DNA from: Circinella umbellata
Taxonomy: Eukaryota > Mucoromycota > Mucoromycetes > Mucorales > Lichtheimiaceae
Direction of reading: 5' to 3'
DNA length: 64,000 nt
Assembly: GCA_025093555.1 (NCBI GenBank)
Contig: JAIWNF010000001.1
Span: forward strand, 62,001 to 126,000
Positions within the stretch are counted from its first letter, which is position 1, and each line of letters begins with the position of its first letter. Shown piece after piece: positions 40,120 to 52,987 of the stretch. Position numbers and translations under genes: made by a program. Under the pieces are notes generated by a model. The model did not search any database and was not told where the DNA came from. It saw only the letters and a program-made list of their open reading frames with translations.

Positions 40120-40565
40120 AAGGCATACTATTTTCTATTTTCTAATATTACATGAGAGCTTTATAATAAGATAATAAATTGTTCATATGATGTCTTAGAT
40201 ACTAAACATTAAATAATGTAATGATAGACTATCAAAATTAAAAAGTTTCATTATGATGAAAAATGCTATATGTATTTCATCATTTGCTTTTAATTCATAT
40301 TGCAATACATGATAGGTATATTTATAGATATTTTACAATGGGTGTTATAGCAGAACACCATCGAGGGTGTTTCTTTTTTGTTTTTTGTTACTGTTTTTTA
40401 ATACGTAATTCCTATATTAGCTAGTAAACCCGTGGATCTGGTGTGATCTCAGCTCAACAGATATATCATAAGCTGGACCTCCATTTCCTATCTACTACAG
40501 GTGGTCCTGATGTGAGTGTTGGTGTTGTTGCTATTGTTGGTGCCGTGGGTTTGTACGCTTTCTGT
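40120..40565 (-). repeat. Duplicated 3' end of FIG4 (last about 45 codons plus 3' flank)
   Basis: The block aligns with 55,795-56,200. Shared landmarks include TTCTATTTTCT near its start, ATTTTACRAYGRGTGTTATA, CCTATATTAG, the coding piece for SVE..I followed by PxR, and the GTTGGTGTTG tract. It therefore holds a copy of the FIG4 C-terminus and about 270 bp beyond it, diverged by many substitutions and small indels. It abuts the end of the lineage-specific pseudogene at 40,531, whose last residues (RTNPRHQQ) come from this block. Confidence 0.8.
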
Positions 40566-41161
40566 GTGGAGTCATGAAGACACTGTTGAGATGTATGGGA
40601 GGGGGAGAGAGCCTTGACGATTTGTTGCTATCATCATCACATGTCTCAACAAGAGAGTATTTTCGTTTGTTGCTGTATAACGATTTTATTACTTCGACGG
40701 ATAGCCTTATAATATGTGATTTCCACATATACAAATGTTTCAAGGTACTTCTCAATATATCCAACTCAAATATATCTGTCGGTATATGAAGATCGGTAAC
40801 TCTCTGAGAAAACATGACGTCCTCATAGCAACACATCTGCGTCATATAACCTGTAATTCCAACAAAGTCAAAAGATAATATTTGGTTGCTAGAGTTTCTT
40901 ATGAGGGAGTTGATGCTGCTTAGGATACATGAGTTTATTCTAGCATTTTTGCTTTGTTGGTGAGTAACCACCGACTTACATGCATCTTGTTTTTTAAACT
41001 CTATGCTACATAGTTCAACAGTGACTCCTAAACGGCTGCAGTTAATAAGTAAATCGATTCTCCTCCCAAATTCAGTCAGTTCATCTTCTTCCATTATACT
41101 ACGTAACGAGTCTTGTGTCGAGACACAGACATTCTCTCCATCCGACAGTATCAGATCAGTG

Positions 41162-41519
41162 AGAAACAATTCAACTTACTTTATATATATTTTTCTTGAT
41201 ATAATTAGGTGTAAGTTGTTTAAAAACTTGCACCACGACACTTTATGGTTTTTTCTCTTAGAGAAAAGTTCTCGAATTTCAATAAAAAAATTTATTTTTT
41301 GTCTTTGAAAAATTCGAAATATATATTCTTAACATATAAATATTGTAATATATAAATCTTTATTAATTTATTATTGATAATTTATTCTTAAAATAGTATA
41401 AACACTTCTAAATATTTTATAAACTTAAAATAATTATAATTAATTAAAAGAGAAAAAAATAAATATATCTTTTATTAAATTTAAATACTAGTAAAAAACA
41501 TTATAGATAGAATTGTTCC
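41162..41519. repeat. Left 358-bp direct repeat of the chromodomain-DDE element
   Basis: It starts AGAAACAATTCAACTTAC and ends GATAGAATTGTTCCT, so it also has an inverted 10/11-bp match at its own ends. It contains GGTGTAAGTTGTTTAAAAAC. Nearly identical to the right copy; differences include ACCACGACAC against ACCGTGACTC and an 11-bp TAATTTAAAAG present only in the right copy. Confidence 0.85.
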
Positions 41520-41533
41520 TCTTATTATTATTT

Positions 41534-42922
41534 TTATGACCTTTTTATAGAGTTCCAGTAATTTTTTATTAGATCTTTTTCTATAAAGTCATGTTCTTTA
41601 ACCCAAGAGTTATTATCTTTTTTATAATTTTTCCATTTTGCAAAAAATTCATATTTATCTAAAACTTTTTTATGTGTTATTATATATTGAACTTCATAAA
41701 TTTTATCTTCTTTTCTATCTAAATTATTTTCATTAACTTCATTAATTTCCATTGATATATCTTCATATATATTTTCTATATCATTTATATTTAATGTGTT
41801 TAGAAATTGGTTCTGTAAATTCTTAATATCATTTATTTTCTCTATTTTATATTGTGTTTTTAAAGTTAAATCTTCATAGTTATAATTTTGTTTATGTTTA
41901 AAAATATATTCGAAATCATCTATCCTCCATTTACTATAATGATTGATATCACCAACAGGAAACAATTCATAAAAATATTTAATATTTAATAAAGTAACTG
42001 CTAATTTTAATTGAATATTATATATCTTTTTATCAGTAATTCTAATTTTAATTTTACCATTAAATCTATTAAAAATATTTCCTAGTTCAGCAAAATATGC
42101 TTCAATTTTAGATCTGAATCCCCCTAACATTTCATTGAAATCTTTTTCATCTTTTGTTAATAAAATATTTTTATCTTTTTTTATTGGATAACAGAAATTA
42201 TATAATGAGATATTATATCCTATATTTTTATACTTTTCTATATATTCTTTTATACTATTTTCATATAATCCATCAAATGCAATACAATCTGTTTCATAAT
42301 AAAAGGAATCTAGATTTATATCTAATAGCATATTATCATCTGTATTAAGTTTACAAGGTAATGATTCTGAAACATATATACAGATTTTATTTATATCAAT
42401 TATAAATTGTGTATTTAGTCCATTATTTTTTAACTTCCATGAATATAATTCTTTCTTATCTAAATTTATATCCTGATATATTATTCGATTATGATGTCCA
42501 TCTAACATTAATGTCACATTATCAAATATATCTGGATTAATCTTTTTAGCACATAATAATCTTAATAAAGGAGAACTAAAACAAAACTTCATTTTTTCAT
42601 TTAACCATTGTTCTAAAAATTCATAGTTTTTAATAAATAAGCTTTCATAAATTTTAAAAAAGGATGATTCTGGTATATAAATTTCCATTTCACTATGTGT
42701 ATAACCTGTTAATAAATATTGTATTAGTAATAAACCTTTTTCAATCATAAAATAAGGGCCTGGCATTTTTATATTACTACAAATTTCTGTTAAAAAAACA
42801 AAAACTGGTATATCTCCTAATTTATCATATATATTCTCTTTAACATTTTTTATATTTTTTATATTTTCAATTTTTTTTCTGTGAAATTTTGTTTCAATAT
42901 TATAAACATACTCATTTTTCAT
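41534..42922 (-). CDS. DDE transposase (DDE_Tnp_4/Harbinger-like) with C-terminal chromodomain
   Basis: An intact 462-aa frame without introns. The catalytic triad fits the IS5/Harbinger-type pattern. The first Asp is D141 in LMLDGHHNRI, followed by SWKLKNNGLNTQFIIDINK. The second is D217 in CIAFDGLYENSI. The Glu is E274 in FNEMLGGFRSKIEAYF, the 'N..L...R..vE..F' helix. The N-terminal 120 residues are helical and basic and could bind DNA. Residues about 407-455 (IYEVQYIITHKKVLDKYEFF, then AKWKNYKKDNNSWV) form a chromodomain with the aromatic residues expected for methyl-lysine binding. Chromodomains in mobile elements are best known from retrotransposon integrases, where they steer insertion to heterochromatin. 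Codons are strongly AT-biased (many AAT/ATA/TTA), unlike the housekeeping genes. Likely still capable of activity, but untested. Confidence 0.8.
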   Translation of the reverse strand: MKNEYVYNIETKFHRKKIENIKNIKNVKENIYDKLGDIPVFVFLTEICSNIKMPGPYFMIEKGLLLIQYLLTGYTHSEMEIYIPESSFFKIYESLFIKNYEFLEQWLNEKMKFCFSSPLLRLLCAKKINPDIFDNVTLMLDGHHNRIIYQDINLDKKELYSWKLKNNGLNTQFIIDINKICIYVSESLPCKLNTDDNMLLDINLDSFYYETDCIAFDGLYENSIKEYIEKYKNIGYNISLYNFCYPIKKDKNILLTKDEKDFNEMLGGFRSKIEAYFAELGNIFNRFNGKIKIRITDKKIYNIQLKLAVTLLNIKYFYELFPVGDINHYSKWRIDDFEYIFKHKQNYNYEDLTLKTQYKIEKINDIKNLQNQFLNTLNINDIENIYEDISMEINEVNENNLDRKEDKIYEVQYIITHKKVLDKYEFFAKWKNYKKDNNSWVKEHDFIEKDLIKNYWNSIKRS

Positions 42923-43125
42923 AAATCCCCAATATTTTGCATATATTTTTTTATATTCTTATTCTATTAAAGAATCCATAGCATATTTTTTAAAAATATA
43001 TAAAATTCAATTTTTTGTTTTTTAAATATAAATGAGTTTTGTATTTTTAAATCCTAATAGTAACAAAATAAAAATAAAAATTGATACTATGAATTCAAAA
43101 CAAAGAGCAATTTTTATTTAAGAGA

Positions 43126-43180
43126 AACAATTTAACTTATTTTATATATATTTTTCTTGATATAATTAGTAATTTAAAAG
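43126..43180. repeat. Right direct repeat of the chromodomain-DDE element, first part
   Basis: AGAGAAACAATTTAACTTAT begins a 55-bp piece that matches 41,161-41,208. It is cut off from its remainder (45,879-46,189) by the Mutator-like insertion and ends with the TTTAAAAG target duplication. Confidence 0.85.
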
Positions 43181-43869
43181 GAGAATTACTACATGGGCTA
43201 CAAAACTTCAAAGTCAGACCACATGGGCTACAGGTATTTTAGTAACTTTTGTAGCCCATCTCGTTGTCTAATTTTTTGTAGCCCACCTCATCTAATTTTT
43301 TTTATCATCTATTACTCGACCCTCTCATTTTTTCTGTAATAATATAAATATATCGAGAAAGGTTATAATTTCAATATAAACTGTATGATACTTGATAACA
43401 ATGATAACAATAATAATAATAATAAAATATGTACGTCAAATATAAATATTAATGATACTATTGAAGTGTTTGTGGTTATGACAAAGAGATTCATAATATA
43501 AAATGATATGAATTATGTGAATAAAATAATATAAAGGTTATAATAGACTAAATAATTATAGATAATGGTATATGGCAGTTCTTATATTCAGGAATTTTAC
43601 GTCTGAATCCATGAAAAGGAGGAAGTCTTAATAAAATTATAAAAGGGAAATCAACTAAAGATTTATTTATGAAAGATAATTTATTTAATCAAAGACAACA
43701 GATAAAATTAAGTAAAAGTAGAACTGAAAAAATGGGGAGAATTTATATTGATTACCAATGGTAAAAACATTCAATAGCTTTTGTGGAAAAGTGCAAAAGC
43801 AAAGTACAATGATTCTCTAATATTAATTATAATATAATGTACCTTTTGGCTCTAGCTTAATAGCATCGG

Positions 43870-45046
43870 CTGCTGCAAGTAATTCATTTAATTCTTGTAA
43901 ATTATCTTTTTTCATTTGTGATTTCCCACCATCACCTTTTACTGTAATCGGAATTTTTCCAGTTTCATGGGAAGTGTTTTGAACTATAGGATACTTTTTC
44001 TATGGATATAGCTCCATGTATTCTTGTAACGTTTCGGATCCCTACCGCGAGATTCCCAGATAGTCAATAATTTGGGCGAAACAGGAGGCCAAGTCATCCT
44101 TGGAAATCTTTTTGTTCTAATGGTTTGAAAGTGGTTTCCATGAACGAGATATATTATTTCGGGTAGTGGCTGTTGAGCAGGTATGTCATATGGTAGGTAT
44201 AATTCTGAATCATAGATTGAATCAGAATAACTAGTTAGAGGTAAACTGAAAGTATTCGCTGCAACTTGTATATCAAAAGCTAGATCAAACCAATATTCCT
44301 TGCAGCAAGCAGAACGGGTTCGTAATTGTGGTGCAACGCCATATGCCATTCTTTGAAGTAGTGCGTCATATAAAACACGATGTTCACTACAAATATACTC
44401 AATGCAGATATCTCGACTATCTTTGACATTTTCTCTTTAACATCTAAGTACTTTTTAATCTTTATATACAATATACGCCAAAGCCCTAAAGCCATACCAA
44501 CCATCATCCACAATTTTGATTTCTTCTACTGTGTTCTTTGCTGGGATGTCTGGATGTATAATTCTATACAAATTTGAAATATAGTTATACCATGTATATT
44601 ATCAGTTCATTGTCAATAGGTATATATATCTTGAATAGTTATTTATATACTTTTGTTCCTTGTTTCCTTTAGATGGATCGTCATCCGCATTTTTTTCATT
44701 GTTTTTGACTCATTTGTTACAGTAGGGAACCAAAGGCTCGTTTGAGGGGGATAATTGATTTTTATTTTCTTTCGATTGATTCGCTTCTTTTTTGTCTTTC
44801 ACTTTCTGCTTTTCTTTTGCTTCATTTTCTAATTTTTCCCAACATGATGGAATTCTCGAGCCAATCGCTTCTTTTTGGTGGACGTCCTTTGGTTTTTACT
44901 GACTTGGGTAAAGTAAGATTCTCAATAGAAACAGACAAACATTTCTTCAAGGCAGAATTAATGGCTCCAATTAAGTCTTGACATTGTTGATTATTTTGAC
45001 ATGCGATGTACGCTGAAGTGATTTTTTCTTTCATTTCTTGATACAT
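43870..45046 (-). pseudogene. Decayed Mutator-type protein with dead OTU-like cysteine protease domain
   Basis: Upstream piece 45,046-44,822: YQEMKEKITSAYIACQNNQQ, CQDLIGAINSALKKCLSVSI, then VKTKGRPPKRSDWLENS. The OTU-like piece starts near 44,570: IKIVDDGWYGFRALAYIVYK. In OTU proteins this motif reads DGxCxFRAxA, so the Cys nucleophile is replaced by Tyr (TAT). About 110 residues further on, LPEIIYLVHGNHFQTIRTKR carries the expected catalytic His (NHF), followed by MTWPPVSPKLLTIWES. A stop after VYK-D, one after YP and a frame change near 44,000 break the gene. The last piece (TSHETGKIPITVKGDGGKSQ, then LNELLAAADAIKLEPKG) is in another frame. OTU domains in Mutator-like elements are established; the assignment here is by motif. 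Confidence 0.6.
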
Positions 45047-45356
45047 CCCTTGTAAAGAGTCTGCAAGTCATCATCGGTTTCAATTTCGCCCTTATCTTCG
45101 GTAGCGGTTTTACTATGCGACTCCTTTGAAGTGCTGTCTAATTATAATATATTAATAAAATCATACATAATATCAAATTACATTGTTTATCTATCTTTTA
45201 TTTTTACAGCCATACATAAATATCAAATATTTGTAATAAATATAATATTCTTTACCTGTTGGCGGAACTAACCACTATCTCTTATTGTACAACTTTCGAT
45301 ACAAGGGCGTAACAGCATATCAATAATGATGCTAATATTACTGCGGGATCTAGCAA

Positions 45357-45400
45357 TAATTGTAATTGTAATTGTAATTATAATTATAGTTGTAATGCAT
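45357..45400. repeat. TGTAAT hexanucleotide repeat
   Basis: Five to six tandem, partly degenerate TGTAAT/TATAAT units inside the Mutator-like element, in its non-coding right part. Confidence 0.7.
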
Positions 45401-45878
45401 ATGATTTATGTTGTTAATATTGTTGTGCACCTTGACAATATTGATTATTATATGTTATAATATATAACAAGCAGAAATCAATGCGTATTACAAGAAGCAT
45501 GAAAAATAAAGTATGAACGTTTCTTTTTAAAATTTAAAAATTTGTCAAAGAGAAAAAGGTGCACCAAGTAATTTTACTATACATTTACGTACGGAAGAAA
45601 TTATACAATAATAAAAATATAGTTATAATGTAAAAAGATAGTAACAATAAAATTAATCATCTTAGAAATTTTATCATGGAAATAACAACTATGTGATATT
45701 AAAAAAATTACAAAAAATTGGACGAGATGGGCTACAAAAAATTGGACGAGATCAAAAATTGGACGAGATGGGCTACAAAAAATTAGACGAGGTGGGCTAC
45801 AAAAGTTACTAAAATACCTGTAGCCCATGTGGTCTGACTTTGAAGTTTTGTAGCCCATGTAGTAATTCTCTTTAAAAG

Positions 45879-46189
45879 GTGTAAGTTGTTTAAAAACTTG
45901 CACCGTGACTCTTTATGGTTTTTTCTCTTAGAGAAAAGTTCTCGAATTTCAATAAAAAAATTTATTTTTTGTCTTTGAAAAATTCGAAATATATATTCTT
46001 AACATATAAATATTGTAATATATAAATCTTTATTAATTTATTATTGATAATTTATTCTTAAAATAGTATAAACACTTCTAAATATTTTATAAACTTAAAA
46101 TAATTATAATTAATTAAAAGAGAAAAAAAAATATATCTTTTATTAAATTTAAATACTAGTAAAAAACATTATAGATAGAATTGTTCCTT
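45879..46189. repeat. Right direct repeat of the chromodomain-DDE element, second part
   Basis: Begins GTGTAAGTTGTTTAAAAACT and ends GATAGAATTGTTCCTT. It is the continuation of 43,126-43,180 and is nearly identical to 41,208-41,519. Confidence 0.9.
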
Positions 46190-47060
46190 AGTGTCATCCA
46201 AAATAACATCTAACAACTCTTCAAACTTTCTTAAAAATGATAATTCTGACTTAGGTGAAGCACCCTTCCAAAATCGAAAATTTCTAACACTTGTAAAAAA
46301 AATACGAAGAGTAAATAAAACAACTATTTGATTAACAAGAAAAATAAAAACTTACACAATTTCAACTACGTTCAGCAGTTGATACTTTTGTGAGCGCTTG
46401 TTTGTCTCTTAGTATTTTAGTTCATCAATTATACTATGCAACATATCGGTGTTACTGGTTGTTACATATGGCTCGAGTTGATCAAGTACTTCATCGATGA
46501 TCATGTTCATATCACCATCAAATTCAATCTCGTCCTTTTTTTTCTGTCTATCATCTGTTATTTTTTTCTTTGTATCACTGGGAATAAAAGACTGGTACAT
46601 ATTGCGTAGATGCGGATTATTGAAATTTAGAATATTGGATAAGGAGAGCTTTAATAGCTCAGTAGACAAGAAGTCAATACTGTCTTGTTTTATGAGTGAA
46701 TGTGATTTTTTAAGCAATATATGTCTGATGTTATTGTTTTGCTTCTCCTCAGGAATATTTATATCATCGATTTTGTACTTCGGGTTTAGGAGCTTCTTTA
46801 TGGCCATATTTCTAACCTTGCTTACATAGTTGTCATCCCCGTTTTTTTCAGCTACCGAACTAGTTTCATCTTCTATTGCTTCCTCTTCCATTTCACTGCT
46901 TTCGTCTCCATCTTCAACATCTTCGTCTTCTGCAGAACTTTCATCGTCGCTTTCTTCTGTGGTACTATCATTGCTTTTCAACAGCCTGACCGAACGCTGA
47001 GCTTGATTACCAATTGCTGTAATAGATGCAGTGAATTTTGAGCTCGTGAAGTTTTCTAAA

Positions 47061-48464
47061 TATAATGAAGGTAGTTAAAAGATTTGCTTAACAACGATAT
47101 TTTTCCTTTCTTACGTACCAATGCTTTCGCTTGAATATATATATTTTGAAAAACAGTTGTTGTCTTGTTTCCTCTATTTTGAGTCGCTTATTAGTTTTGA
47201 TAGTTTCTGTACTGCGGTCAAAAATAAAAAATTACCTGGATGCAGTTTGGATTTTAGGTCTTTCACTCAGATGGGGGTCGCCACAGGTGAATTAACATGA
47301 CATCATCTGCTATCCATACTTGCTAATAACAACAAGGAGCACCATATCCCTACAAGGTCGTATGAGATTCCTATGTTGTTGAGGATAACGCCTTTGCGAT
47401 TTTTCACCAAGAATTTAAAAACAAGCTCTTCATAAGAATTATTAGGTCATTTTTTAATAAGTATGGTAACAATAGACTCGAAATACAGTTTTGAGGTTTA
47501 TTTGATGTATGATTAATGCTTTGAGTTAGGCTAGGGTCGCTATTTATTCTTATGAATACGTAGGTATGAAACACTTTTAAGAAAGTAAAGGTCTATTTTG
47601 TTCATACAGCAAGGTTGTGAAAAGATATACTTTATCACCTTTTTATTGATTTCAAAGGTAAAAATGTAAAATAGCGAACACCTTTCGTCTTTTGGTCTAT
47701 GAGACATGTTAAAAAGGGACCAACTTTATGAACTCTGGTTAGAACAATAGTATCTCATAGATGCTTTGTTTGATAAATGAAAAGGGCTGGATAAATACCA
47801 TTTTATGATTAAATTTTATTTGGGTGATAAAAAGTATATGTTTCGATTAGTAAAGTAGTTCTCCCATTCGATAGATACTTGTATATTTGTAGTGGTTTGA
47901 TCGAAGAAACTATTAAACATGATTAAAGCAATAAAACAAGAAGATGCAAAAGTTATTAGTGAGGATACGTATCCTTACTTCTTTACGTACGAAAGGATAA
48001 TTTACGAATACGGTACGTACATTCTCATCAGCTGTAACGTAGTATATTGAAGTTGATCGAATAAGATAAGTCGGGAATGTTTCATTTAGGTCCTTTTTAA
48101 ATCTTTTACCTAGCACGTACGTAGATAAGCTCAAAGGATATAGATATTAACATAATAGGTATGATATTTAAAATACTGTTATCTTTTTAATCATAAAAAA
48201 CAAATAGAATACGTATGTACATTTAAGATAAGATGTTACGTATTATATGAATAGATATTTGAGGTTAGTAATTAAAGTGGATCAGAGCTTTAGAAGAATC
48301 CTATGAGGTGTGGGGTATCTCTTATTCTTATTTGTTACTAGGGAGAATATACCTTAGTTTTGGTATTTAATAAAGACTGAAGTTTACAAAAAAATTGTAG
48401 TTCACAAATTTTTTTAAAAATAATTGAAATTGAATTTTCAACTTACAAAAAAATAACTTTTCAA
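47061..48464. other. Flank of copy 1 with a diverged repeat of 32.85-33.1 kb
   Basis: No intact gene. 47,437-47,590 and 47,940-48,130 are related to 32,850-33,100. The minus-strand frame 47,913-48,134 (LNETFPTYLIRSTSIYYVTA) has a degraded partner near 33,090-32,990 (both contain NYPFV), which suggests an old coding sequence. TACGTA palindromes are frequent. Confidence 0.45.
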
Positions 48465-50005
48465 ATGGATCAACAAAATATAACTGATAAAATTAATAAT
48501 GAAGTTAATAAAATTATTATAGATAATTGGAACTTTTTAGAATATAATTGGCCTGTCATAAACTATAAATATAAACATCGTACTATAATAAAACATATTA
48601 ATAATATAAATGAAATTAAAAAAAAATTAATTAATAAAGCTGGTTATATTGCTGTATTTTATTTTCTAATTATACTATATACAAATAAGGAATATCCAGG
48701 TCCTTATTTTGAACTTGAAAAAGGTTTATTTTTACTATTTCATTTAGTAGAAGGTATATCAGGTATAGATATAAATAAATATATACCTCAAACAGCATGT
48801 CATAAATATTATAAAAAGTTTTGGATGGATGAAGATAATTATAAAAGAATAAATAAGATAGTTAATAATTCATTAGAAAATATGTTTTCATCATTAAGAT
48901 TAAGAATTTTATGTGCACATAAAAATAATCCACCACTATTTAAACATATTACATTTATTATTGATGGACATCATGATTCCCGTATTAATTATGTTAACAC
49001 TGATATAAAACGTGAAAGATTGTTTTCTTATAAGTTTAAAAAAAGTGGTTTACATACCCAAATTATAGCAGATATTAATGATATGATAATTTATACATCT
49101 AAAAGCGAGTTTTGTGCAGATAGTTCAGATGGAAGTATGTTTTTAAATATGAAACTTTATAATAAATTAAATAAAAATGATGTATTAGCAACTGATGTCG
49201 GCTATACCTTATTTATTAATCAATTAATAGAACTCTCTTCTGAAAAAGGATATGATTTATTAAAAAATAATTTATATATCCTATAAGAAAGGAAATTAAT
49301 GTAAATTTAACAGCTGATGAACGATATTATGATGATGTTTTTAGAAGTTTTAGATCAAAAATTGAGAATCAATTCTCTGAAGTTGGTAATAAATATAAGA
49401 GATTCAATAATAACAAATATATTGTCTAAATGGATAATATAAAATTCTATAACCTTCAGTTTCGTGTTGCATGTCTATTAAAAAATATACAAAAGTTTTG
49501 TGAGATATTTAATATAAATGTACAACCACATCATAAATTATGGGAATCAGATGATTTTGATTTTCGATATGAAGCTAAGTTGGTTGATATTGTTATTAGT
49601 AGTTCAGGTGAAGCTGCATTAAAAAAAGATGAGATTCTTAAATTACAAGAACAGTTTTTAAATCTTGATATTGAAAATGATAATATGAATATTGATAATG
49701 AGATTAGTGAAAATGATAATGAAGATAATAATAGTAGTGAAGATGATATTCCTAAATTTAATAAAAAGAAAAGAAGACGTAAAGGAAAGGAAAAAGCTAT
49801 TAATATAGATAAAGTTAGAAATACAGAGGATAAAGCATATGAAATTAAAAGTATAGTTGATCATAAAATTGAGCATAATGAGTACATATTTTTTGTAAAA
49901 TGGAAAAACTATCCTTTTACAGATAATAGTTGGTTACATATCAATAAGTTTAATGAAAAAGATTTATTAAATGAATATATTTTAGAACATTATCTTCATA
50001 TATAA
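48465..50005 (+). pseudogene. Second chromodomain-DDE transposase, frameshifted
   Basis: Homologous to the 41,534-42,922 protein along its full length but clearly diverged. MDQQNITDKI... carries PGPYFELEKGLFLLFHLVEG, the first Asp D167 in FIIDGHHDSRIN and the second D244 in LATDVGYTLFI. A frame change at about 49,270-49,285 follows NNLYI. The next piece, PIRKEINVNLTADERYYDDV, carries FRSFRSKIENQFSE with the catalytic Glu. An in-frame TAA at 49,427-49,429 precedes MDNIKFYNLQFRVACLLKNI. An acidic linker and a nuclear-localisation-like KKKRRRKGKEKA segment lead to a chromodomain at the end (AYEIKSIVDHKIEHNEYIFF, VKWKNYPFTDNSW). No direct repeats or clear ends could be seen around it. Confidence 0.75.
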
Positions 50006-50282
50006 TTCTTTATATATTTAAGGCAAAACATTATTAAAACAAAGAAAGAAAGGATTACCTATAATTATTTTTATTGGTTTTCTTTCTTTTCTTTTTTATA
50101 ATTAGATCATCTTCCTGTTTCTTTACAATTTTTTCAATTTTTTTCTTTTTATTGGTATATGTTTTTTACTATGAGAGCAACAAAGATAGTCTGGCTTACT
50201 ATCTAATAGGTTAGTTTGTATTTTTTTCCTGCAAAATTTGCCTTCATTTTATCCTTTTTGAAATTTATGTGTACAAAAATCA

Positions 50283-50576
50283 TTATGCATAGATAGATAT
50301 ATGTAGGAAATGATCAGTAGAGAATAGATTTTTTATTTTTTTATTTATTTTTTTTGAGATTTCTTCAATTATGTTTTTATTAATAAAATTATCGAATTCA
50401 GATTGTATAAAAACATCTAATTCATTACATAAATTTATTTGTAGTTGAATGTGGTTGATAGGTAAAAATTCATTGAGGCAAACCATTTTGAGTGTTCTTT
50501 TTACATTATAAAAAAAATTCAATTTTTGTTTTAAACAAAAAAATTTATTATGCATCATTTCAAACTCCGAATCCAT
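50283..50576 (-). CDS. Hypothetical small protein convergent with the second chromodomain transposase
   Basis: A 97-codon frame, FEMMHNKFFCLKQKLNFFYN to KKIKNLFSTDHFLHISIYA, mostly helical in appearance with LQINLCNELDVFIQSEFDNF. No domain recognised. It lies 280 bp past the end of the transposase, on the other strand, and shares its AT-biased codons, so it may be a second gene of that element (Harbinger-type elements often have one) or chance. Confidence 0.3.
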   Translation of the reverse strand: MDSEFEMMHNKFFCLKQKLNFFYNVKRTLKMVCLNEFLPINHIQLQINLCNELDVFIQSEFDNFINKNIIEEISKKINKKIKNLFSTDHFLHISIYA

Positions 50577-52164
50577 AAAATATCTATAATTTAAAAGAAA
50601 ATTATATTATATTTGTGAACATTAGACTATGGTTTATTCCTCTAGGCCTAACAAGAAACATCATATTTACGCTTATTTAGTCGTTTAATCAGAAATTTAA
50701 TACAAACCAATGACCATCCATGAAAAAACTGGAGTATCATACCTTCATATATTTATCAGTTTACATGGCATGCATAACAGATTGTACAGATGTTTAAACA
50801 TTTCATTCATATAAAAAGACCTTTTTTGTATGTAATATAATAACACAATTTACATAGTAGCCTTTACAATAAGTAGCAAGTACATTTTAAAAAAAAATTA
50901 TCAAGTATTTCTGTGCGGAATCATGAATACATCATTAAGAGAAATAGGGGGAGGTGTAAACCGATCAGAGTGATTGTTCTCATCTTCACTAGTTTCAACA
51001 AATGCATACTTTCTTTTGTTTCAATATATGGATTTGACTACTGTGTTAGCTAATTTTATAACATAAAATTTCCATAAATAAAGATGCTTCAATGTACTTC
51101 TTAAATGATCCAATTCTAGAACATGGGTAGGAATATGAAGATTGTTGATTTTTTGCAAAACCATGACGTCCTTATAGTAGTACATTTGGAATATATAACT
51201 GTTATTTCCTGCAAAATCAAAGCCTAATACTTGGTTAGTGATGTCCTTCATGAGAGAATTAATGCTGCTCAAAATACACGAGTTCACTCTTGCATTCTTG
51301 CTCTGCTAGTGAATGATAAGTGAATTACTTGCATCTTCTTTTTTAAATTCAATGGAGGATAATTCGACTTTAGTATCCAAATGAGCACAGCTCACCAATA
51401 AGTCAATTCTTCTTCTGTATTCTGTGTTTTCACCTTCTTCTAGCATACTCCATAACGCGTCTCTAGTGGAGATACAGACACTCTTACCATCTGACAACAT
51501 AAGATCTGTATCATCCATGATCACCTCAAGTAACCCTTCAAATTTTCGTAGATATATGAGTTCTGATTTTGGAGATGCACTGCTCCAAAAGCGAATGTTT
51601 TTGACACTAGTAAAAAAAAAAGAAAAAAAGAGTAAATATGAGCAGTATGTATTCCACTAAGAAAAAAAAACAAAGATAACTTATACCATCTCCACCACAT
51701 TTAAAACTTGATAATTGGACGAACGTTTGTCGGATTCTCGGTGCTGAAGTTCGTCGATTATTGTGTAAATAGTATATATATTACTTGTAGTAGTTACTGT
51801 ATTTAAGTTTAATTTATCAAAGATACCATCTATAACAGTGTTCATTTCACTATCAAACTGAAGTTGACTCTTCTTTTGTTGCCTGGAATATGTAATGTTT
51901 TCTAATTCTTCAGCAGGAATAATGCTTTGATAAACATCTCTTAATTAGGGATTTGCGAAGTTGAGGATGTTGGATAGTGATAGCTTCAAGAGTTCGGTTA
52001 ATAGATGATCAATGGAATTTTGTTATAATATAGTATGTGCTTTTTGCAAAGAATGTGGCTGATAGTTTTGTTGTGTTGACTGACAGGAATATTCAAGCTT
52101 TTGATTTTACGCTTTGGATATAAAAGTTTTAATGAAGCCATACTTTGCACTTCTTTTTCATAAT

Positions 52165-52987
52165 GGAGATTAAATAATAATAGTAAATATTTTTGTAAAC
52201 TATAAAATTTTTGTAATCCTTAGATTATTAAAAATTAACATGTTTACTTATATTTATTCAAGTATATAAAAACTAAAGAAATTAATTTTTATTTTCTGCT
52301 ATAACAACACACAACACCAACACTAACTATAAAAGAAAACAAATTCTTTATTTCCTTTTCTTTGTTATTAATTATATATATAAAAAACATTTATTCATTA
52401 TACAAATTATGTTTTTAAAATCTTTATTAAAGATATTGTATCTTATCTTAAAAAAGAATCAAAAAAGAATTATTTTTTTTATTTTATTTTTAATCTTCTA
52501 TATAGAATTGATCTTTTTAACTTTTAAATTATATTATATGTTAAAATGATTACGTAATCATTTAATTAACATGTGAAAATTAATTTTATTAATTTTGATG
52601 TTTATAAACATCTTGATATATTAAATATATTATATAAATAAATATCAATAAGAATCACCCTAAAGGGTTAAAAGCTTGCAGTGGCGAGCTGATTCTTATT
52701 TATAAACTTTTATTTTTATATATTTTTATTTCTGAAAAGCATAAAAATCAATTGATTTTAAATGTTTTTTATATATATAATTAATAACAAAGAAAAGGAA
52801 ATAAAGAATTTGTTTTCTTTTATAGTTAGTGTTGGTGTTGTGTGTTGTTATAGCAGAAAATAAAAATTAATTTCTTTAGTTTTTACATACTTAAATAAAT
52901 ATAAGTAAACATGTTAATTTTTAATAATCTAAGGATTACAAAAATTTTATAGTTTACAAAAATATTTATTATTATTATTTAATCTCC
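52165..52987. mobile_element. Foldback-type element, about 220-bp inverted arms
   Basis: The left arm 52,165-52,390 (GGAGATTAAATAATAATAGT...) and right arm 52,768-52,987 are inverted copies with few differences, including ACAACACACAACACCAACAC and its complement. A loop of about 370 bp separates them and itself holds AAGAATCACC...GCTGATTCTT. No ORF. I found no clear target duplication (left flank CATAAT, right flank TAGATG). Its RNA would form a long hairpin. Confidence 0.8.

Follow-up and report, generated by a model that had tools for sequence, protein, structure and literature searches.

A probable composite-like transposon with long terminal direct repeats and a DDE_Tnp_4-chromodomain transposase in Circinella umbellata

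In bacterial composite transposons and IS26 translocatable units, two tip-bounded copies in direct orientation flank a cargo, the whole moves, and the flanking unit is also found alone. Chromoviruses, a group of long terminal repeat (LTR) retrotransposons, have direct terminal repeats, solo repeats and a C-terminal chromodomain on a DDE enzyme. In this work, we describe an element of the fungus Circinella umbellata in which a transposase gene lies between two long terminal direct repeats. It occupies positions 41161-46189 of a 64,000-nucleotide stretch of contig JAIWNF010000001.1 (G000:C1:62001-126000 in our numbering), which is called the window below, and is built as repeat, internal region and repeat.

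Among DNA transposons, the same arrangement is found in KolobokP (Kojima and Bao 2022, PMC9587614), animal elements in which, according to the accessible text of that paper, the internal region lies between long terminal direct repeats. The authors state there that these repeats set KolobokP apart from all other DNA transposons, and they proposed that a homing endonuclease aids its multiplication and offsets the loss of structure. With respect to the transposase, the relevant group is the PHIS superfamily (PMC4482050), which comprises PIF/Harbinger, ISL2EU, Spy, Pangu and Nuwa; several of its groups encode a second gene, a Myb/SANT protein, in addition to the transposase. The words "direct repeat" and "chromo" are absent from the accessible part of that article. 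Our literature search covered open-access papers, with subscription papers and Repbase mostly outside it, and among the matches listed no title concerned terminal direct repeats in a PIF/Harbinger-type element or a transposon that combines DDE_Tnp_4 with a chromodomain; the accessible parts of PMC12730594, PMC12477816 and PMC10799480 describe neither.

The architecture of the window element is already known from KolobokP; here the transposase is PIF/Harbinger-like, the host is fungal, and no homing endonuclease was found. In particular, unlike in the KolobokP elements of the accessible text, no His-Me finger endonuclease was seen: the list of open reading frames (ORFs) has no second ORF of at least 80 amino acids (aa) wholly inside the internal region, a criterion that a spliced or very short gene would escape, and the transposase has no such Pfam match. 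An earlier interpretation of the window, made without database searches (the sequence-only reading), had offered an undescribed type of element as one possibility. The repeats do belong to the element, and the same build is seen at four further loci (L003, L004, L005 and L024), but the type is not new, given the same build in the accessible description of KolobokP. We regard it as probable that the element is a composite-like transposon of PIF/Harbinger type (DDE_Tnp_4) with a chromodomain, which is mobilised as a whole through its outer ends and whose repeats are kept alike by recombination.

Architecture of the element and its insertion site

The left repeat (41161..41521) is 361 bp long, and the right repeat is 370 bp long in total, split into two parts (43122..43180 and 45879..46189) by a nested insertion. 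Between the repeats lies an internal region of 1,600 bp (41522..43121), in which one gene was found, a transposase ORF of 462 aa on the minus strand (41534..42922) that encodes a DDE_Tnp_4 domain and a C-terminal chromodomain. The repeats differ at six of 359 aligned bases, in addition to gaps of 11 bp and 2 bp, and a 98% match between two copies of about 360 bp is not a matter of chance. Short inverted tips, GAGAAACAATTC and GAATTGTTCCTC, bound each of them, the final base of the right copy being T; the tips of the element as a whole read GAGAAAC and GTTTCTC. The near-identical terminal repeats with inverted tips of their own had been recognized in the sequence-only reading, and they stand, with the correction that the right one is split by a 2,690-bp insert.

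The element interrupts a gene (40531-41160 with 46190-46291), and an open frame spans the insertion site once the element and one AGT triplet are removed. This triplet is the target-site duplication, with its left copy at 41158..41160 and an equal right copy at 46190..46192. A paralogue of the interrupted gene on the minus strand (51003..51608) provides a paralogous empty site: it shows 62% identity to residues 1-202 of the protein read from the joined flanks, with two stops inside, and it aligns across the junction without a gap, both in protein and in DNA. The complete unit was inserted as a whole and duplicated 3 bp of its target. A 4-bp duplication, AGTG, had been proposed earlier. It is better read as AGT followed by the first G of the element, because the second repeat also begins with G inside the element; the 3-bp reading is adopted because relatives with clear duplications show 3 bp. 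The interrupted gene and its paralogue, about 5-10 kb apart, are uncharacterised and have 39 matches in the genome in all, including weaker relatives, and no Pfam family matched them at a meaningful score.

The nested insertion in the right repeat (43181..45870) is an inverted-repeat element of 2,690 bp that is foreign to the composite element. It has an 8-bp duplication, TTTAAAAG, at 43173-43180 and 45871-45878, and inverted arms of 87 nucleotides that are 98% complementary. Its insertion point is known because solo repeats elsewhere have that sequence uninterrupted. It contains GATGGGCTACAAAA-type subrepeats, and the one ORF tried (43984-44349, minus strand) has no Pfam match.

The repeat itself contains a palindrome, TTTCTC-TTA-GAGAAA, at 41252-41266 and 45922-45936, which is also present in the solo repeats and in the repeat on contig C19. 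It consists of two tip-like motifs that abut with a 3-bp spacer, and its sequence resembles a junction between two ends, or a site for the transposase.

Related copies, solo repeats and the transposase tree

The genome scanned for copies amounts to 50.8 Mb in 210 contigs. A protein search gave at least 109 matches (92 of 205 candidates were scored), 30 of which were taken as loci, and 28 of these were examined for a pair of direct repeats, one on each side of the ORF, with a length of 100 bp or more and an identity of 80% or more. The flanks used were at most 1.5 kb, and shorter for L003, L008 and L030, so that repeats lying farther away would be missed. Direct repeats around the ORF were detected in five of the 28 loci (L003, L004, L005, L024 and L009). 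L009 was rejected as a composite, since its repeat is a neighbouring copy and it has no terminal repeat. The window locus and L002 (contig C19) were outside this test; at L002, a nested inverted-repeat insertion adjoins a break, half an ORF stands beside one repeat, and the second half was not found.

The four remaining loci have the same build as the window element with other repeat sequences, and in all five composites the repeats are in direct orientation. The search for further copies suggested in the sequence-only reading thereby yielded the same class of ORF with terminal direct repeats of its own. In L003, the two 345-bp repeats match at 345 of 345 positions, and the 201-bp repeats of L004 show no differences (0/201). 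L004 and L005 represent the same 2,113-bp unit, differing at two internal bases and one outermost tip base; their flanks are unrelated and their duplications are CTT and ATT, respectively. That one unit sits at two places, each with a duplication of its own, indicates that the unit moves whole. L024 is damaged, with a nested palindromic insertion inside its second repeat. No multimers of the form (repeat-internal region)n-repeat were present among the five composites.

Solo copies of the repeat also exist. The window repeat has 13 matches in the genome, namely its own two repeats, one piece of the right repeat and ten others. Among the latter, the copies at C142:260527, C79:701290 and C192:706 are solo units with 3-bp duplications (AAA, TTT and AAA); the partial copy on C206, five pieces of 98-145 bp and the one repeat on C19 were not counted as solo. 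The sequence-only reading had envisaged solo units of about 360 bp with duplications of their own, as well as a transposon lying between two copies of a short derivative of itself, and the latter picture holds in part: tips bound each repeat, and such units are also found by themselves with 3-bp duplications. In total, 3-bp duplications were present in all four composites with both outer tips and in all three solo units, a count that omits the damaged L024 and C157, the partial C206 and the half-lost C19, in which a tip is missing or altered. Equal 3-mers occur at random window positions with a frequency of 0.025, compared with seven of the seven units whose tips are both readable; note that three of these seven are AAA or TTT and so carry less weight. 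The seven duplications (AGT, TAA, CTT, ATT, AAA, TTT and AAA) share no single common motif.

An alternative explanation is that an ordinary transposon came to lie between two separately inserted short non-autonomous elements, giving a structure without any role in the life cycle. The solo units favour this to the extent that the repeats can be separate units. However, the same build recurs in five elements with the repeats always direct, and one unit occupies two sites with different outer duplications. Moreover, none of the eight single repeats of the window, L003, L004 and L005 is flanked by equal triplets, which is a weak point since later moves of the whole unit would erase them. In the genome search, which skips common words, the L003 repeat had full-length matches only in its own element (two of four matches, the others being pieces of 112 and 67 bases), and all four matches of the L004 repeat were within L004 and L005, so that no free full-length copy of either was found.

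The repeats are also very different between elements. Those of the window and C19 differ at 67 of 356 and 70 of 365 positions, and the repeat ends of the window, L003, L004 and L024 are not significantly similar once the 7-base tips are set aside (z between -1.8 and 1.9). With permissive settings, BLAST gives partial, AT-rich matches of repeats from different lineages, such as 36 bp with 86% identity in the right ends of L004 and L024, and the internal regions of these two align with 70% identity over 1,718 columns. Because the repeats are alike within an element and divergent between lineages, with no free full-length copies of the L003 and L004 repeats found, the sequence comparison points to concerted evolution, in which the two repeats of an element are homogenised, and argues against chance flanking.

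The distribution of the composites bears on the same question. A maximum-likelihood tree was constructed from 45 rows, of which five have terminal repeats, 22 are labelled ordinary and 18 are unlabelled; since L004 and L005 are near-copies, the five composite rows represent about four lineages. One branch with 100/100 support splits the five composite rows from the 22 ordinary rows. A single change suffices for this split, which is present in 100% of 200 bootstrap trees, and none of 500 shuffles gave a count as low. In this genome, the architecture is restricted to one side of the transposase tree. The same kind of ORF without direct repeats, which according to the sequence-only reading would mark the repeats as unrelated elements, occurs only across the tree and not in the clade of the window element where the DNA was readable. 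Taken together, these observations largely refute the explanation by chance flanking, and we consider it improbable.

The ordinary relatives show what the transposase family looks like outside the composite clade. L007, L010, L012, L014, L020, L021, L023 and L025 are inverted-repeat elements of 1.8-2.4 kb with similar tips and 3-bp duplications (six of eight as first cut, and eight of eight once the right end of L023 and L025 is shifted by one base). L013 also has a 3-bp duplication, and L009, L006 and L026 show none at their guessed ends. In the L015/L016 group, two loci were extended, and they share a unit of about 4.0 kb that has no terminal direct repeats. These relatives bear on a further explanation, in which the window element would descend from a small LTR retrotransposon, or from a terminal-repeat retrotransposon in miniature (TRIM), by acquisition of a transposase gene. 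Such an origin would fit the long direct repeats at the ends, the existence of solo repeats, and a chromodomain like that of chromovirus integrases. On the other hand, the same transposase's relatives are plain inverted-repeat transposons with similar tips, the repeats end in GAGAAAC/GTTTCTC rather than TG/CA, and the duplication is 3 bp long. In addition, the internal regions of the composites are 1,487-1,711 bp long, leaving little space beside the transposase and none for a reverse transcriptase. Compared with chromoviruses, there is no gag-pol or reverse transcriptase in the element, and the transposase belongs to an unrelated family. We give the retroelement explanation almost no credence.

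Three further observations concern single copies. L012 and L013 (G000:C198:2264-10215) are two identical copies of an ordinary relative that face opposite ways in a long, perfectly inverted arrangement, possibly an assembly palindrome. L026 (G000:C146:449427-453332) is a truncated relative between 161-bp perfect inverted repeats, and is 99.6% identical to L006 over 1,538 columns. In the window itself, positions 48567-49978 of the plus strand hold a second, decayed relative of the same transposase family in three matching pieces with stops; no repeats were found around it at E <= 1e-4 within 46600-52500.

The transposase and its chromodomain

The window transposase matches PF13359 (DDE_Tnp_4) with 23.3 bits (E 5e-5; cut-off 24.8) and Chromo with 28.5 bits, over the cut-off of 25.1. 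All 23 sequences of a selected alignment, the window copy included, match both profiles at E <= 0.01, and D141, D217 and E274 are invariant across the alignment. A predicted structure contains a DDE-transposase fold and a chromodomain fold, the latter with the fold and the aromatic cage of an HP1-like methyl-lysine reader. The DDE triad and C-terminal chromodomain assigned by the sequence-only reading are thus confirmed by the profile search, which did not fail for either domain, and both folds are seen in the model. From its sequence and modelled fold, the chromodomain may steer insertion toward chromatin with methylated histones.

The ORF had also been described as single and intact. It is the only gene found, but it is not fully intact, since an in-frame stop separates it from an upstream N-terminus that is conserved in the relatives. 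Its stop codon is 13 nucleotides from the left repeat, and the corresponding distance to one repeat is 8-72 nucleotides in L003, L004, L005 and the window element. Named relatives of the transposase are few and come from Mucor flavus, Apophysomyces, Rhizomucor and Entomortierella. Relatives with 35 and 40% identity are also encoded by L061 and L062, contigs of 26% G+C from metagenome-assembled genomes (MAGs) of rabbit gut labelled "Bacilli"; these contigs, filed under bacterial MAGs, are possibly mis-binned eukaryotic DNA.

Maintenance of the repeats and comparison with described systems

In the composite-like reading, each repeat is bounded by short tips, the expected recognition sites of the transposase. 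The enzyme would cut at the outermost pair of tips and paste the entire repeat-gene-repeat unit, and the repeats would be re-homogenised by homologous recombination between them. Possible routes are gene conversion, unequal exchange, and a two-step route in which the internal region leaves as a [repeat+gene] circle and then re-enters at a solo repeat. One locus illustrates the recombination part. On C157, a solo L024-type repeat has both flanks of the L024 composite on C189, about 170 bp upstream and about 160 bp downstream. The two are states of the same locus with and without the internal region, and therefore fit recombination between repeats in either direction.

A different use of the circle is conceivable, in which it would attack a new site by means of the tips of its single repeat, in a replicative reaction like that of IS26. 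Every insertion would then duplicate the repeat, resulting in identical terminal repeats and a 3-bp duplication. PIF/Harbinger transposases are regarded as cut-and-paste enzymes, which counts against such a reaction. It predicts repeat-gene-repeat with an outer 3-bp duplication, as observed, and further that young copies should have identical repeats and that the repeats should lack free copies; the authors of KolobokP raised the same circle idea (PMC9587614, accessible text). The element resembles IS26-type units in that two direct tip-bounded copies flank a cargo and are also found alone; it differs from them in that the transposase gene sits in the cargo instead of the flanking unit, and the circle is hypothetical. 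Plain recombination accounts for the same data, and the C157/C189 locus is as recombination predicts. We regard this explanation as unlikely, although it deserves more weight than chance flanking or a retroelement origin. If true, it would mean that a DDE transposase can sustain an LTR-like life cycle with neither reverse transcription nor a homing endonuclease.

Several points weigh against the composite-like reading or its details. The data do not discriminate among gene conversion by itself, re-entry of a circle and replicative integration; solo repeats could be leftovers of recombination or independent insertions; and the change between C157 and C189 could have gone in either direction. 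The DDE_Tnp_4 match of the window copy falls slightly below the Pfam cut-off. Since the repeat search skips common words, the number of free copies is a lower bound, and the AT-rich BLAST matches leave room for a remote kinship of the repeats across lineages. The roughly four composite lineages all come from one assembly, their clade also holds 13 rows (labelled P) from other sources that are known as protein only, and about half of the 22 ordinary rows were judged on 1.5-kb flanks only, with unsettled ends.

Both KolobokP, as far as its description is accessible, and the fungal elements have long terminal direct repeats with short inverted tips of their own (RR..YY) around a transposase gene, solo repeats, and a DDD/E-type transposase in the internal region; in each case the architecture is confined to one lineage of a larger superfamily. 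By contrast with the same description, the fungal transposase is of the DDE_Tnp_4 (PIF/Harbinger) type with a chromodomain, the host is not an animal, the length without the nested insert is about 2.1-2.3 kb instead of 4.0-4.7 kb in the autonomous oyster families, the repeats are 201-370 bp long instead of about 450 or 660 bp, and there are no multimers among the few copies seen. As judged by Pfam profiles, the DDE_Tnp_4 and Chromo matches point to a superfamily other than Kolobok. The PHIS superfamily, again from the accessible text, shares the DDE_Tnp_4 kind of transposase, short inverted tips usually starting with A or G, and 3-bp duplications in most groups. The present element differs in having terminal direct repeats in place of plain inverted-repeat ends, one gene with a chromodomain and no second Myb/SANT ORF of at least 80 aa, and duplications that as a set fit none of the motifs TWA, ANT, CWG and TNA.

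The composite-like build thus seems to have evolved more than once, the fungal elements being an independent lineage. This second lineage belongs to another kingdom, has another type of transposase and has no endonuclease that could be detected, which indicates that such an architecture can arise repeatedly and that a transposase together with recombination can maintain it. As a 2.1-kb element with a single gene, it is a small system for asking how terminal direct repeats are regenerated, and also whether a transposase of the cut-and-paste type is directed to heterochromatin by its chromodomain.

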